IMG/VR virus record: IMGVR_UViG_3300037507_001179
Span: 1-34,594 of that record
Direction: 5' to 3' (one strand)
DNA from: a virus
Length of the DNA: 34,594 nt
Shown: piece by piece, positions 413 through 12,610 of the stretch
Layout: each line of letters opens with the position of its first letter
Numbering within the stretch: the stretch's first letter is position 1
Made by a program: the position numbers and the translations under genes
The notes under the pieces: generated by a model
The model's input: the letters and a program-made list of their open reading frames with translations, nothing else
The model's database searches: none
What the model was told of the DNA's origin: nothing

Positions 413-511
413 CTCCCAGGTACAGACTCGAACTGTACGGCCTGCGCTTTGTCCCAGCATTTTGGCCCTTAGCCTTGAGGGAGCGCTGCTCTACCAACTG
501 AGCTACTGGGA
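413..511 (-). tRNA. tRNA-shaped element with expanded anticodon loop
   Basis: Read on the minus strand, the element has an acceptor strand TCCCAG (from 510 or 511), canonical T8-A9, a D-arm GCTC-AGTTGGTA-GAGC with G18G19, A26, a 5-bp anticodon stem GCGCT/AGCGC (486-482 and 448-444), a 5-nt variable loop, and a T-arm GTACAG-TTCGAGT-CTGTAC with the conserved TTCGA. The acceptor closes with CTGGGA, then G73-CC. CCA is not fully encoded. The T-stem has 6 bp and the acceptor 6 bp, preserving a 12-bp stack. The anomaly is the anticodon loop: 33 nt (449-481) instead of 7, so no anticodon can be assigned. It could be an intron-bearing tRNA, a decayed tRNA, or a tRNA-like leader of the gene that starts at 402. 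Confidence 0.6.
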
Positions 512-1373: not shown

Positions 1374-1669
1374 TCCCCCTCCTCCCACTTACCCAGCGTC
1401 CTCAGAAAAGCCTCTGCACGGTATCTAGCTGGCAACCCGTAAGGGTTCCACCTGTATGTTAGGCTTTGAACCAAACACGCCATGTCGTAAAGCGCGTTTG
1501 TGTATTCGACCATGTTGGTGCTTTGACCCAAATGGTTCTCCGCCTCGTGCATCGCGTTGAGGTCAGTGCAGTAGTTTTTGTAGCAATCTTTGCAAATATC
1601 TTTGCAACATTCACAAATATAGTCACCGCACTCTTGCGCAATCGCAGCATTTATTTGCTTGTCAGTCAT
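1370..1669 (-). CDS. Phage ABA-sandwich-like protein, tandem paralogue 2
   Basis: 99 aa from MTDKQINAAIAQECG. It shares its start (MTDKQINAAIA), its middle (LNAMHEAE) and its end (RAEAFLRTLGKWEE) with the gene immediately upstream at 1666-1974, so the two arose by tandem duplication. The pattern resembles the small phage ABA sandwich proteins common in uncultured tailed phages, whose role is unknown. This copy has gained cysteines (YICECCKDICKDCYKNYC), a cluster of seven within about 18 residues that the paralogue lacks. That looks like a metal-binding insertion. It overlaps its neighbours at both ends by ATGA. Confidence 0.7.
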   Translation of the reverse strand: MTDKQINAAIAQECGDYICECCKDICKDCYKNYCTDLNAMHEAENHLGQSTNMVEYTNALYDMACLVQSLTYRWNPYGLPARYRAEAFLRTLGKWEEGE

Positions 1670-1974
1670 TTTGCAGCCTCCTCCCATTTGCCTATCGTCC
1701 TCAAAAAAGCTTCTGCGCGTTGGCGGGCTGTTGCGCATATCGGCCAGCGCGTTGATTGGGTGATGTCATAAAGTGCCAAGTAGTACCCCTTAAAGAGCTC
1801 GTCAGAATCCAGCACTTTCTCGGCTTCATGCATGGCGTTTAGGCATCCGCAGTAGTTTGGCAAAAACATTACCCTGTTGGCTGTTTCGCCAGGCGCCTTG
1901 CCAACAACATTGTTTCTAATCTCCGTCCACCCGCACTCTCGCGCAATCGCCGCGTTGATTTGTTTGTCAGTCAT
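1666..1974 (-). CDS. Phage ABA-sandwich-like protein, tandem paralogue 1
   Basis: 102 aa. It begins MTDKQINAAIARECGWTE and ends ARQRAEAFLRTIGKWEE, the typical frame of small phage ABA-sandwich-type proteins of unknown function. The central YCGCLNAMHEAEKVL is characteristic. It is the upstream member of a tandem pair with 1370-1669 and lacks that copy's cysteine cluster. It follows the 71-aa gene by 4 bp. Confidence 0.7.
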   Translation of the reverse strand: MTDKQINAAIARECGWTEIRNNVVGKAPGETANRVMFLPNYCGCLNAMHEAEKVLDSDELFKGYYLALYDITQSTRWPICATARQRAEAFLRTIGKWEEAAK

Positions 1975-1978
1975 AGTG

Positions 1979-2194
1979 CTACTCCCCCTTCAACGGCGCC
2001 AGCGTTGCCTCCATCATCACCGGATCTACCCCGAGCTGGTCGGCAATGATCCTCCGGGCCTCGTATTCGCCTTCCGCGGTGACGCTCCACCAGCGAAATG
2101 GCCGGAAATCGCATGAGACGATGTAGTGCAGTTTTCTTATTGTGTCCGCTGTGGTCATATTGGTTTGAATGGTTAGGGGGGTAGAATCAGGCAT
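1979..2194 (-). CDS. Hypothetical protein
   Basis: 71 aa if the ATG at 2194 is used, which overlaps the upstream stop by 8 bp (ATGCCTGA). An internal ATG (MTTADTIRKLHY) 12 codons later is an alternative. The core (WWSVTAEGEYEARRIIADQLG) resembles small phage proteins of alpha-beta type. No function assigned. Confidence 0.6.
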   Translation of the reverse strand: MPDSTPLTIQTNMTTADTIRKLHYIVSCDFRPFRWWSVTAEGEYEARRIIADQLGVDPVMMEATLAPLKGE

Positions 2195-2546
2195 TCTGTC
2201 GGTTTGTCAGCTTTTGAAACGTGTTGTTTAGCTCGGTCCTGTCGCGGACCCAGTCAGCAGTAGTGCCAACGTACAGATGCACCGTCTCCGGGTCCACTAG
2301 GTCGAGCATGCACAAGGCCCCTCGGAGTTCGGCCTCAAGCATGTCAGCGCGCTCGGTCAGCGCTTCGACCTGCGCCGGGTGCACCACCTCGCAAGCTAGG
2401 CAGGGTCGGCTTGCGAGTGCTGCGTTCTCGGCGCGGAGTGCCTGGTTGAGTTCGATCTGGCGCGCCAGCCGGTCGCCCAAGTCTTGGGCTGCAACGTAAT
2501 TTGCGAACACGTCGGCCTTGGTTACATTTGGTGGGTCAAGGGTCAT
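2187..2546 (-). CDS. Coiled-coil hypothetical protein
   Basis: 119 aa from MTLDPPNVTKADVF. Upstream starts would run into the repeat-rich non-coding stretch and look spurious. Residues 30-90 are a probable coiled coil (LARQIELNQALRAENAAL, VEALTERADMLEAELRGAL), interrupted by a CLAC motif. It is the first gene transcribed after the candidate origin at 2607-2794. Function unknown. Confidence 0.6.
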   Translation of the reverse strand: MTLDPPNVTKADVFANYVAAQDLGDRLARQIELNQALRAENAALASRPCLACEVVHPAQVEALTERADMLEAELRGALCMLDLVDPETVHLYVGTTADWVRDRTELNNTFQKLTNRQNA

Positions 2547-2606: not shown

Positions 2607-2794
2607 TGTTACCGATGTTACCGGTAACAAACGCAAACTTCTTTAGGCGCCCGCGCACTCACCCTCGCGCATCACGCCCTTATCCTATTTTATACTCTAT
2701 TTATAGGATTCTATCGGTAACACCGGTAACATCCTTGTGGTTTAGGCACTTACACCGGTAACATCGACGGTAACACTCGGTAACACCGGTAACA
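2607..2794. repeat. CGGTAACA iteron cluster, candidate replication origin
   Basis: The octamer CGGTAACA occurs as TGTTACCG at 2607-2614, as both halves of the perfect palindrome TGTTACCGGTAACA at 2616-2629, and directly at 2715, 2724, 2756, 2768, 2778 and 2787. That is nine copies in 188 bp, with spacings of 9-12 bp inside the right-hand cluster. The AT-rich gap between clusters contains an inverted repeat. Iterons plus an AT-rich region beside the replicative primase-helicase gene are the usual layout of a phage origin. The right-hand copies also encode the last residues of that protein. Confidence 0.6.
2682..2709. promoter_or_regulatory. AT-rich inverted repeat between iteron clusters
   Basis: ATCCTAT (2682-2688) and ATAGGAT (2703-2709) flank 14 bp of almost pure A/T. 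This could be the DNA unwinding element of the candidate origin. On the minus strand it also contains TATAAA boxes that could serve a promoter for the genes from 2546 downward. The stem is too AT-rich for a convincing intrinsic terminator. Confidence 0.4.
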
Positions 2795-4970
2795 TTCGCC
2801 AGCGCTTCACGGTTGAGCCTCCAGCGCGGGCAACGTAGCTGGTCCACCCAAGCCTGCGCAGTATCACCCCAACGCGTTTTGCGGCCGCGTTACTCTGGTC
2901 CTTGATGTCGATTTGAAGCGGTCCCCCCAAGATCTCCCGCGCGCTGTAGGTGCGGTGCGACTCCATAAAGCTGCCAATGATCTCCTCCCACGGATCCTCT
3001 GGGCGGCGTTCGTCGGCCTCGGTCGAGGCTTGGAGCACTGGCACGCCCCACCAGTCCTCGCCCGCCCGAAACCGTGCCACTGCCTCGGCGAATAACTGCT
3101 CTCGGTTTTCCCTCAACCAGTCCGGGTTAAGAAACCCGCACCGAACCGGCCAAAACCTACGCGCTCCTGTGTCGTCGGCCTGCCAGTCGTCTCGGTTTGT
3201 CGTGCCAGCAAACACGCTCTGCCGTGGGTGCTCCTCGGTCACCCGCCCGTAGGGTAGGCGCACCCGGTCAATGCGCGTGGACATGATGCCCTTCAGCCGG
3301 TCCACGTCAGCCCGGCGAAACGCGTGCATTTCCGCCACCTCGATTAGCCAGCGGCCCTTCAATGAGAGCACAAAATCTTTGCTGCCAAAGTCCTCGTGAC
3401 ACTCGCCAAACCAGTCGCCCCCGAGGATCGCCAGCGCGGACGATTTCCCAGCGCCTTGCGAACCCTCGAACACCGGCATGGTGTCCACCTTACAGCCTGG
3501 ACGGAGCGCACGAGCCACCATTGAGATCAGCCAACACTCGCCAACTCGGACGTGGTACGGGGTCAGCGGCGTGCCAAAGCCGCGCGGGAGCACGTCGTGC
3601 AGTCGGTGCGTGCCGTCCCATGTCAGCGATTCCAGCCACTCCTTCAGGCTGTTTTTGGGGTTGCCTCGGGCCACGGCGTCGGCGGCCTCATGGACGCGCT
3701 CGGTTCCAAGGGTCGGAAACTCAAAGACAGATTGAATCCACCGGGTTACTCGGACGGCGAGGTAGTCAGTCCAGTTTTCGGTTGGTCCAAACGCATCGGT
3801 CTGGATTTTCTCCAAAAACGTGTCGTACCAGATCCGCCCTTTCCATCGTGAGTGCTTTTCGAGCACTTGGCACACGCCGTTCAAACATGGCACATAACGT
3901 CCCTGCGCGCCACGCTGAAACCCAAAGTCCACCAGTTCCGGCTTGCTTTCAGCAATCTCCTCGCGCACCTCCACCCGCTGGATAAGTTCCGTTTCTCCCG
4001 TTCGAATGGCTTGGGTCGTAGTTGTCGTGCGTGCCACAATCAGTTCCTGCACCCCGACGCGTTCGGCCCGCGCTAAGAACGCAAGGCACTCCTCCCGCGT
4101 CCAACCCTCGGAAATGGCGTCGGCCACGTCCCAGCCCTTTTGATCGTAGGATTTGGGATGGGCGATTTTTACCTCGCAGCCGCGGACGATGAGCAACTCG
4201 GCAATTCGAGCCATGCACTTGCGCCCTGGTTCGTCTGCATCGGGCCAGAGCACCACTCGACGCCCTTCGAGCGGGCTCCAGTCCACATGCTCCACCGCAC
4301 CAGAACCACCGGGCCACGTCACCGTAGGCGTCGCAGGGTCCAGTGCTCTGTAGGCGTCTGCGCATTTCTCCCCCTCCACCAGCACCACCACGGCGTTAGG
4401 TAGGCTGGCAAGCTGGTCCAGCCCGTACAACGGACGGGGGCAGGCAAACGCCTTGGTCTGCCACACGATGTCGCCGCGCTCGTCGTACCAGGGCGTTCGC
4501 GGGATCAGCTTTTTACCGCTTTCGGTGTCGATGCGGCAGATGAACCCAAGCACGTTTCCTTCCGCGTTCCGGTATGTGTACCGTGCCGAGGACGCCGGTA
4601 GCTTCGGGTTTGGCATGTCCTCGGGCGGATCCAGCACTGGGTCCAGTTCGTCGGGGTCTGGTTCCTGCACCCGCTGCGCCGCCCGCGGTTGCGGTTGCGT
4701 GTCCCCGCCCAGTCGCTTGGCCGCCTCGCCTTGGCCGATGCCGTGAATGGCAGCGTATAGGCTCACCGGATCGCCTCCCTTCTCGCCGGTGGCAAAATCA
4801 GACCACGCGCCTTTGCGAGCATGGATTTTTAGAGATTCGCCCGGCTCACCCGCCAGCGATCCAACGCACCAGTTCGGCCCGATTTTCTTTCCATTTGGGA
4901 GCCACTGCTTAAGCGTGCCGAGGTAGTCAGCAAGCAACCGCGCGTTGATAGAGTCGAAGTCGATGCTCAT
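2742..4970 (-). CDS. Primase-helicase with Toprim and VapE domains
   Basis: 742 aa from MSIDFDSINARL, whose ATG overlaps the nuclease stop as ATGA. Residues 30-75 resemble the N-terminal region of phage primases without an obvious zinc site. A Toprim domain follows at about 195-265, with VEGEK (198-202) and the acidic motif in WPDADEPG (242-249). The C-terminal half is a VapE/D5-like ATPase: Walker A GSQGAGKS (503-510), Walker B in WLIEVAEM (541-548), sensor GTTNRDD, and a putative arginine finger in TGARRFWPV. It should make primers and unwind DNA at the replication fork. Its last codons lie in the iteron cluster. Confidence 0.92.
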   Translation of the reverse strand: MSIDFDSINARLLADYLGTLKQWLPNGKKIGPNWCVGSLAGEPGESLKIHARKGAWSDFATGEKGGDPVSLYAAIHGIGQGEAAKRLGGDTQPQPRAAQRVQEPDPDELDPVLDPPEDMPNPKLPASSARYTYRNAEGNVLGFICRIDTESGKKLIPRTPWYDERGDIVWQTKAFACPRPLYGLDQLASLPNAVVVLVEGEKCADAYRALDPATPTVTWPGGSGAVEHVDWSPLEGRRVVLWPDADEPGRKCMARIAELLIVRGCEVKIAHPKSYDQKGWDVADAISEGWTREECLAFLARAERVGVQELIVARTTTTTQAIRTGETELIQRVEVREEIAESKPELVDFGFQRGAQGRYVPCLNGVCQVLEKHSRWKGRIWYDTFLEKIQTDAFGPTENWTDYLAVRVTRWIQSVFEFPTLGTERVHEAADAVARGNPKNSLKEWLESLTWDGTHRLHDVLPRGFGTPLTPYHVRVGECWLISMVARALRPGCKVDTMPVFEGSQGAGKSSALAILGGDWFGECHEDFGSKDFVLSLKGRWLIEVAEMHAFRRADVDRLKGIMSTRIDRVRLPYGRVTEEHPRQSVFAGTTNRDDWQADDTGARRFWPVRCGFLNPDWLRENREQLFAEAVARFRAGEDWWGVPVLQASTEADERRPEDPWEEIIGSFMESHRTYSAREILGGPLQIDIKDQSNAAAKRVGVILRRLGWTSYVARAGGSTVKRWRMLPVLPSVTVDVTGVSA

Positions 4971-5305
4971 AGTCCTGCCTCCGCTTCCTCGGCCGAACGC
5001 GCAATCATCGCGATCCCGCCGTGTTGTTTCACGACCTTCTGCCACCGGAGCTGTTCAGCGCTTGGTTTGCCTTTGTTTGTTTTCACCTCGATAGACAGGA
5101 ACACCGCCACAGTCTTTCCAACGTGGTCTTGTGTGATGGTCAGCGCGCGCCAGCCGATAAGGTCAGCGGATCCAGGACACAGCCCAAACGTGTGCCACCG
5201 TGCGTGCTGATCCTGCACTCGGCCAACGTGGTTGCGAAATAGGCGGCAGTCAGGACGTGAGCCAATGGCGGAGAGGATTTGGTTTTGGATTTTAGCTTCG
5301 GACAT
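4967..5305 (-). CDS. VRR-NUC family nuclease
   Basis: 112 aa from MSEAKIQNQILSAIG; longer upstream readings are out-of-frame shadow of the helicase gene. It matches the small stand-alone VRR-NUC (PD-(D/E)XK) nucleases of phages: an N-terminal helix with a Q-x2-I pattern, RNHVGRVQD, the catalytic Asp in PGSADLIG, the E-x-K in LSIEVKTNKGKPSAEQ, and the closing QLRWQKVVKQHGGIAMIA. It sits between an SF2 helicase and the primase, overlapping both, and probably processes branched or flapped DNA during replication or recombination. Confidence 0.9.
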   Translation of the reverse strand: MSEAKIQNQILSAIGSRPDCRLFRNHVGRVQDQHARWHTFGLCPGSADLIGWRALTITQDHVGKTVAVFLSIEVKTNKGKPSAEQLRWQKVVKQHGGIAMIARSAEEAEAGL

Positions 5306-6917
5306 GGGAAAGTTTTTGTTGGTGGCGATGGTAAGCCCAGCCGGGCTTGTAGCCGTTGAGTTCGGCAATGGCTTGGAAATCGGAGAGGGACTCAGCCGCA
5401 GCGCAAAGCGCGCCGGTGATAAGTTTAAGAAAAGGAGTGAATCGCTCGTCAAAAGCCTCCCACGTTTCTTTGGTTTGCTGTTCGTGAATGAAAACTGCAA
5501 GTTTGCCAACGCACTGTTCACGAAGTTCTGTTCCCCATTTCCATGCAATGGAGTTTCGTGGCACTTGCGGCATGAGGTCATCCGCAAGTTCATCTTCGCG
5601 AATATCAAGTTTGCGGGAAATCACCTCAAGAATATGGCGTCGAATCCCAGTCTGTGGCGGCGGAAGCCACTGCGGCAGTTCCTCAAGATCACCACTAAGT
5701 TGCTCAAGTTCTCCACGCACGCCTTGTTCCCGTTCATGCCCACATTCCGGGCAAACTTCTGCCGCTGCTGGAATGATTGCAAAGCACGCCTCGCAACGTC
5801 GCACTGGTGATTCGCCTTTTTCTTTTTCTCTGCCGTCAAGGCTCCACACGCGGTGGTCTTCTGCTCGTCCGTGGTTGATTTGCCAATCTTCTTTCCTCAA
5901 GTGTGCCACGTTGCCGACGTGGTCGATCACGATAGCGCGCTCCTTGCCTGGTGCTGGCCTGAGCACCCGCCCGATTTGTTGCAGATGCAGCCCTAATGAT
6001 TGGGTTGGACGCAACAGGATCGCAGCAGTGACAACCGGCACGTCAAAACCCTCGCTGATAATGTCACAGGAGGATACCCCGTGCAGTTCGCCGTTGCCGA
6101 GCTTTTGGATGGCAGCTTGGTTGTCGGCGTAGCTCATTCGGGAGTGGAGCGCCTGCCAGCGGTAACCCGCAGCGCGGAAACCTTCAGCCACGTTTTCAGA
6201 ATGTGCAATGCTCGCGCAAAATGCAATTGCAGGCGCGTCGTTACACACCTTGCGATACCATTCAACCGCGTGTCCAGTGACTCCGCGCGTGTTCACTGCG
6301 CGCTCGGTTTCGGTTTTATCATACTCACCCATTCGAGTGCGCATTCCTTCGGTGCTAACGGTTTTTGGCGAGTAATACCGGACCTTAGAAAGGAACCCTT
6401 TGTCCATCAGGTCCTGCACGCGCGGCCCGAGCACCATGGCGTCAAACACGTCGCCCAGTCCCCTGCCATCAAGCCTCTGCGGTGTCGCCGTGACGCCCAC
6501 AACGCGCGCGGCAGGATAAGCGCCCATGATCGTGTTCCAACTGCCTGCGGTGGCGTGATGCGCCTCGTCGCAGATAATCCAGTCCGGTTGCCAGGCAATT
6601 TTCTGGATTCGGTTTTTTAGAGTGTGCACCCCGGCAACCTGCGTCAGGTGGCAGAGTTCCCGCTTCCGCTTGGCAGCGATAAACCCGTGTGGAATTTCAA
6701 AGCGGGCCAGCGTGCCCCCGATCTGATCGAGCAGGAAATCTCGGTGAGCCAGGAGCAGCACGCGGTTTCCTCGCTGAGTCAATTTTTGGGTGAGGTAGGA
6801 AAACATCACCGTCTTGCCTGCGCCAGTTGGCGCCACCAAAAGCACGCGCCGATGCTTTTTCGCAAACGCCGCTCGCAGGTCGTCAATGCACTGTTGTTGG
6901 TAGTCTCTTAGTTCCAT
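5292..6917 (-). CDS. DEAH-box SF2 helicase
   Basis: 541 aa. Motif I APTGAGKT (29-36), motif II DEAH (117-120), motif III VTATPQR, a second RecA domain, and motif VI QQIGRVLRP are all present, so it is a complete superfamily 2 enzyme of the RecG/UvsW/RAD25-like phage group. A zinc ribbon follows (CEAC then CPECG, near residues 378-396), and then a 150-residue helical tail. It overlaps the VRR-NUC gene by 14 bp, a common helicase-nuclease pairing in phages. Likely role: fork restart or D-loop remodelling. Confidence 0.92.
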   Translation of the reverse strand: MELRDYQQQCIDDLRAAFAKKHRRVLLVAPTGAGKTVMFSYLTQKLTQRGNRVLLLAHRDFLLDQIGGTLARFEIPHGFIAAKRKRELCHLTQVAGVHTLKNRIQKIAWQPDWIICDEAHHATAGSWNTIMGAYPAARVVGVTATPQRLDGRGLGDVFDAMVLGPRVQDLMDKGFLSKVRYYSPKTVSTEGMRTRMGEYDKTETERAVNTRGVTGHAVEWYRKVCNDAPAIAFCASIAHSENVAEGFRAAGYRWQALHSRMSYADNQAAIQKLGNGELHGVSSCDIISEGFDVPVVTAAILLRPTQSLGLHLQQIGRVLRPAPGKERAIVIDHVGNVAHLRKEDWQINHGRAEDHRVWSLDGREKEKGESPVRRCEACFAIIPAAAEVCPECGHEREQGVRGELEQLSGDLEELPQWLPPPQTGIRRHILEVISRKLDIREDELADDLMPQVPRNSIAWKWGTELREQCVGKLAVFIHEQQTKETWEAFDERFTPFLKLITGALCAAAESLSDFQAIAELNGYKPGWAYHRHQQKLSHVRS

Positions 6918-12346: not shown

Positions 12347-12610
12347 ATGGAAACACCTACACCAGTCAAAACTCGTAAACCCCGCACCGTCAAAGAAGCT
12401 GCGCCCCATGTCGCTGCGCTGAAAAAATCGGTAACAAAAGCCCTTAAGGCTGAGCACGCCTACAGCCTAGCAAGTGCAAAAGCTGGCAAGCAGATCGAGC
12501 GCATCAAAGAGAGCCTGAAGACTAAGCGTGGAGCAGTAAAAGCAGCCTGGTACGAGGTCCAGAATCAGGCTTCGGCCTGCGTTAGCGTGTACGACGGGCC
12601 AGAGCTTTAG
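12347..12610 (+). CDS. Lone plus-strand Lys-rich helical protein
   Basis: 87 aa from METPTPVKTRKPRTVK, preceded by GGCGGAG at a good SD distance, one of the few clear SD sequences in the window. The N-terminal 20 residues are basic and proline-rich, like a DNA-tethering arm. The rest is helical and Lys/Ala-rich (HVAALKKSVTKALKAEHAYS, KQIERIKESLKTKRGAVKA). It is the only gene facing this way, is divergent from the early unit, and converges on the endolysin with a 4-bp stop overlap. A regulator or nucleoid-like protein fits position and composition, but no family is recognised. Confidence 0.75.
   Translation: METPTPVKTRKPRTVKEAAPHVAALKKSVTKALKAEHAYSLASAKAGKQIERIKESLKTKRGAVKAAWYEVQNQASACVSVYDGPEL

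Follow-up and report, generated by a model that had tools for sequence, protein, structure and literature searches.

The segment at positions 2607 to 2794 of the window (the whole 34,594-nucleotide stretch of viral DNA analyzed here) is very probably the replication origin of a tailed phage, bound by the C-terminal winged helix of the phage's own VapE-type primase-helicase. We favor this reading because the initiator is homologous to those of PICIs (phage-inducible chromosomal islands) and the layout is identical to that of PICI origins. The organization itself is known; its carrier is not a PICI. The window encodes a terminase large subunit, a portal, and tail/baseplate proteins, and is therefore assigned to a tailed phage and not to a satellite; the same genes led us to reject a PICI, a satellite that relies on a helper phage to form its virion. 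Among cellular sequences, the two top matches are contigs of Spartobacteria (Verrucomicrobiota) and Planctomycetaceae. The window is a linear contig, beyond whose ends a further origin may exist.

Two facing iteron arms flank the most AT-rich segment of the window

An exact-match search found nine copies of CGGTAACA across 2607 to 2794, two on the minus strand (starting at 2607 and 2616) and seven on the plus strand, arranged as arms of three and six copies around an 85-bp gap. The distal arm consists of minus-strand copies at 2607 to 2614 and 2616 to 2623 and a plus-strand copy at 2622 to 2629; the last two overlap, forming the 14-bp palindrome TGTTACCGGTAACA (2616 to 2629). All six copies of the primase-side arm are on the plus strand. 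The primase stop codon lies at 2742 to 2744, so the copies at 2715 to 2722 and 2724 to 2731 are past the stop and noncoding, and the other four (2756 to 2794) are coding: those at 2756 to 2763, 2768 to 2775, 2778 to 2785, and 2787 to 2794 specify primase residues 761 to 764, 757 to 760, 754 to 756, and 751 to 753, respectively, spanning residues 751 to 764. Read from the gene, the array begins within the last 17 codons of the primase and ends ∼135 bp beyond its stop. The earlier note had described nine iterons around an AT-rich inverted repeat at the primase 3′ end, six to the right (four of them coding) and three to the left around a 14-bp palindrome; exact matching confirmed both the count and the positions.

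The most AT-rich 35-mer of the 34.6-kb window (28/35) starts at 2680, between the two arms. This block (2680 to 2714), a putative unwinding element, contains an inverted repeat with 7-bp arms, ATCCTAT (2682 to 2688) and ATAGGAT (2703 to 2709), and adjoins a GC-rich block, CGCGCATCACGCC (2666 to 2678). In an alignment, both blocks are conserved in the related loci L004 and L015.

The top 8-mer in 2600 to 2800 occurs 9 times, against a maximum of 3 for any 8-mer in 2,000 dinucleotide-preserving shuffles. When the whole window was tiled, no 8-mer exceeded 3 copies in any tile outside the array region, and CGGTAACA itself recurs elsewhere in the window only as two isolated exact copies, at 12429 and 17142. 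GC skew, which the earlier note had proposed as a check, was uninformative, with no clear turn at the array. A DnaA-dependent iteron plasmid origin was rejected, as the whole window has no exact match to the consensus TTWTNCACA.

The adjacent gene encodes a PriRep1-like primase-helicase with a C-terminal winged helix

The primase gene (2742 to 5045, minus strand; probable ATG start at 4970) encodes a TOPRIM primase, a VapE (SF3/D5-like) helicase, and a winged helix, as judged by Pfam and PDB matches, and is likely an origin-binding initiator. Residues 471 to 671 match the VapE-like domain PF05272 with an E value of 5.7e-70 and 235.6 bits, above the Pfam gathering cutoff of 25, which places the protein in the VapE-like helicase family. 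In an AlphaFold2 model (mean pLDDT, 88), residues ∼140 to 330 match DnaG-type TOPRIM primase domains (Z score of about 15). The closest solved structure is that of PriRep1, a SaPI-type initiator, with double-stranded DNA (PDB 7pds; Z score of 32.4 over 384 residues, model residues 368 to 757), followed by the SaPI5 primase-helicase (7ola; Z score of 14). A profile match to PriRep1 has an E value of 5e-86.

The winged helix comprises residues ∼685 to 751 (2793 to 2993, minus strand), modeled as a helix at 719 to 731 followed by strands at 734 to 741 and 744 to 751. The helix, NAAAKRVGVILRR (2853 to 2891, minus strand), is the putative recognition helix and includes K723 (2877 to 2879), the residue preceding a near-invariant arginine. 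Searched alone with Foldseek, the domain gave weak matches, none below an E value of 0.001 and many of them to winged-helix proteins; its closest relative is therefore known only through the full-length match to 7pds.

Facing iteron arrays recur next to vapE with lineage-specific repeats

We examined 126 nonredundant vapE loci with a complete 3′ region and counted repeated 7-mers in the 700 bp spanning the vapE stop. In 54 loci, one 7-mer occurs there at least 6 times, a count reached by 34/2,667 control windows taken from other parts of these loci; in 50/54 cases, no other window of the locus scores as high as the 3′ window. The association is not universal, because this 7-mer finder detected no array in 72/126 loci. 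Four vapE loci (L041, L077, L045, and L035) lack an array at the stop but have a 7-mer repeated 12 to 18 times in another part of the locus. With hold-out loci added, two facing arms are present in 95 of 119 array-bearing loci, separated by 45 to 140 bp (median of 86 bp versus 85 bp in the window).

The repeat is specific to the lineage: TGTTACCG, TGTTTCCG, TGTTTCCTC, TGTAGCCGAT, TGTCACCA, TGTTCCGGCAA, TGTTACACGT, CGTCCAACCT, CTTCCATACCT, CTTCCTAACCT, AGACAACCT, and others. Clear arrays are found in two isolate phages, Yersinia phage YeP4 (AGACAACC) and Marinobacter phage PS3 (GGTCACCCC), and a smaller one is found at vapE of Caulobacter phage Jess A. No such array was found in the phages Mica, ep3, phiWae15, XapPhi2, VarioGold, Aval, and Haddon, which have VapE-like primases; those of Mica, ep3, and phiWae15 give the impression of a visibly different C-terminal sequence.

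Counting against the origin reading, the close relative L015 has degenerate mixed iterons, with TGTTACC on the primase side and GTTTCC on the other. Over ∼6255 to 6410 of this locus, TGTTACC on the primase side faces GTTTCCGGAAAC/GGAAACA on the other side, and the AT-rich core is kept; L015 may have an origin that is passing from one iteron type to another.

Iterons covary with the winged helix of the initiator

Iteron similarity tracks winged-helix similarity after removal of helicase-core similarity (partial Mantel coefficient of 0.33; permutation standard deviation of 0.045; 0/2,000 permutations). The site of K723 stands out, having the highest bias-corrected mutual information among 420 columns. 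In the discovery set, the iteron contains ACCT in 28/30 loci with T or M at this site and in 1/24 loci with other residues, that one being V. As this pattern was first noticed in the data, the T/M rule, with V added, was fixed before new loci were scored. Among the hold-out loci, which are still members of related clades, ACCT is present in 42/48 loci with T, M, or V and in 3/17 others (Fisher P = 3e-7). Phylogenetically independent pairs drawn from the helicase-core tree were concordant in 12 cases and discordant in 1, with 5 ties (sign test P = 0.0017), and the ACCT association persists at 17/25 versus 3/40 when the largest iteron groups are removed. The relatedness of these clades limits the conclusion, and the residue at the 723 site is a candidate for reading the iteron bases.

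Post hoc, K at this site also seemed to go with CG in the iteron. At L016 (∼6190 to 6400), the repeat is GAACCCC instead of TGTTACCG, although the recognition helix is nearly identical to that of the window; the wing differs, and comparison of these sequences suggests that the wing may also set specificity.

An operator or a recombination site is a less likely account of the array

The array could instead be an operator, bound by the primase-helicase or another regulator and controlling late primase transcription or the next downstream gene (2187 to 2546, minus strand), which has no assigned function and no match in Pfam or PHROG. The distal arm lies ∼60 to 85 bp upstream of the ATG of this gene, and the palindrome looks like a binding site for a repressor. 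Against this, a promoter/terminator scan found none, leaving 2450 to 2900 without a promoter-like site of the sigma-70 type that was sought; facing multicopy arms around an AT-rich gap recur beside vapE with a sequence that differs in each lineage; and the repeats covary with the initiator's own winged helix. We regard an operator as improbable. A recombination, packaging, or partition site is less probable still: inverted repeats are common at all three, but here the position and the partner gene are consistently those of a replication initiator, with whose winged helix the repeat covaries.

Coding iterons are kept as DNA

The iteron-coded C-terminal tail of the initiator comprises residues 752 to 767 (2745 to 2792, minus strand). 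The earlier note had proposed that this tail and its target evolve together, and a functional tail, for instance, a DNA-contacting part coevolving with its own target, would fit the fact that L004, whose primase-helicase is 95% identical to that of the window, has an identical tail. The identity, however, extends to every synonymous site: the last 17 codons differ at 0/11 four-fold sites and 0/51 nucleotides, whereas 167/385 four-fold sites differ in the gene body (P of about 0.002 for the contrast with the coding iterons). Because it covers all synonymous sites, we attribute the identity to selection at the DNA level, and selection of this kind accounts for iterons that run on into the 3′ end of the gene.

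In the AlphaFold2 model, the tail that follows the folded winged helix is predicted to be disordered (pLDDT under 50 at residues 757 to 767), and the four coding iterons are read in two phases, first MLP.VLP and then VT.VTG. When C-terminal tails and iterons were compared among relatives, as the earlier note had suggested, repeats were kept while the frame changed or the stop moved. L007 and L017 (same contig as L008) share the repeat GTTTCCTCT in different frames, SSVSSV versus CFLCFL; in L018 and L020, the stop codon precedes the repeats. L016 (same contig as L006; 82% identity) has both a different repeat and a different tail. At least two coding iterons are present in only 10/119 array-bearing loci. 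A functional tail is thus most unlikely, and the part that covaries with the iterons is the winged helix. Of the earlier proposal, an origin with partly coding iterons stands, backed by the recurrent layout, the match to PICI/SaPI origins, and the four-fold-site contrast; coevolution of the tail does not. The iteron-coded peptide is an unstructured by-product, and the DNA is what is kept.

Comparison with known origins

In PICI origins, an AT-rich region invariably lies between two sets of iterons, and a plasmid carrying the rep-ori segment of the PICI EcCICFT073 replicates in Escherichia coli (PMC6092414). The Rep helicases of SaPIs use their C-terminal domain to bind iterons directly 3′ of their own gene, apparently as two hexamers (PMC7581432). 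The window shares with these systems (PMC6092414, PMC7581432; 7pds, 7ola) the location directly 3′ of the initiator helicase gene, two element-specific iteron sets flanking an AT-rich region, and a Rep/PriRep-homologous initiator that combines a helicase core with a C-terminal DNA-binding domain, which in the window is predicted from the 7pds match and AlphaFold2 models. It differs in its carrier, a tailed phage of full size that has genes for terminase, portal, and tail; in its TOPRIM/DnaG-like primase part; and in having 4/9 iterons inside the initiator gene.

The classic precedent for initiator-coding iterons is lambda ori, where iterons by an AT-rich region lie inside the coding sequence of the initiator O and extra iterons merely add residues to the protein (PMC7466680). 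The window likewise has iterons adjoining an AT-rich region within the coding sequence of its own initiator. Unlike the window initiator, O is not a helicase, and its iterons lie mid-gene, with no facing second arm described in PMC7466680. A lambda-type origin was therefore rejected, the window having a VapE helicase with iterons at the 3′ end of the gene. In the Cch2 operon of SCCmec, a different mobile element, a D5-like helicase also binds direct repeats just 3′ of its own gene, through its isolated C-terminal domain, but that origin has only three 5-nucleotide iterons in a single direct-repeat region (PMC7581432). Geminivirus iterons similarly differ among close relatives and are specific for the cognate initiator (PMC12548392), which is an unrelated rolling-circle Rep of eukaryotic single-stranded DNA viruses.

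A model for initiation and its implications

In the favored model, the primase-helicase would contact the CGGTAACA iterons with its C-terminal winged helix, assemble on the two facing arms, melt the AT-rich block between them, and load as a helicase hexamer, probably one on each arm, so that two forks would be initiated in vivo. Such an arrangement of the arms would suit two hexamers oriented in opposite directions.

More broadly, we give about even weight to the proposal that the self-loading VapE helicases of full-size phages across several bacterial phyla use one large class of facing-iteron origins, in which residue 723 of the recognition helix helps to set the iteron that is read (T/M, or V, with ACCT, and other residues not). 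If so, the facing-iteron design is not exclusive to PICIs, and iteron and winged helix diversify together, which could prevent phages and satellites in the same cell from activating one another's origins. The occurrence of the same organization outside satellites, in the window, at many vapE loci, and in the isolate phages YeP4 and PS3, bears on the origin of PICI replicons. Our literature search, with subscription journals thinly covered, found no paper on a facing-iteron origin in VapE-type phages. The covariation of iteron and winged helix yields a concrete, testable rule of specificity for a large family of initiators, and it provides a means of predicting phage origins from sequence.

Other features of the window

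Two adjacent small open reading frames, 1370 to 1738 and 1666 to 1974 (minus strand), have no match in Pfam and by eye resemble a tandem duplication. A 98-nucleotide stretch at 414 to 511 (minus strand) matches the Rfam tRNA family RF00005 (32.2 bits) and is not called by ARAGORN; by eye it has extra length around the anticodon arm, and it could therefore be a tRNA that is degenerate or unusual. Adjoining it is a 27-nucleotide direct repeat, GTGTGCAGTCTCTCCTGCTGTCACGCC, present in three copies at 514 to 540, 579 to 605, and 700 to 726.
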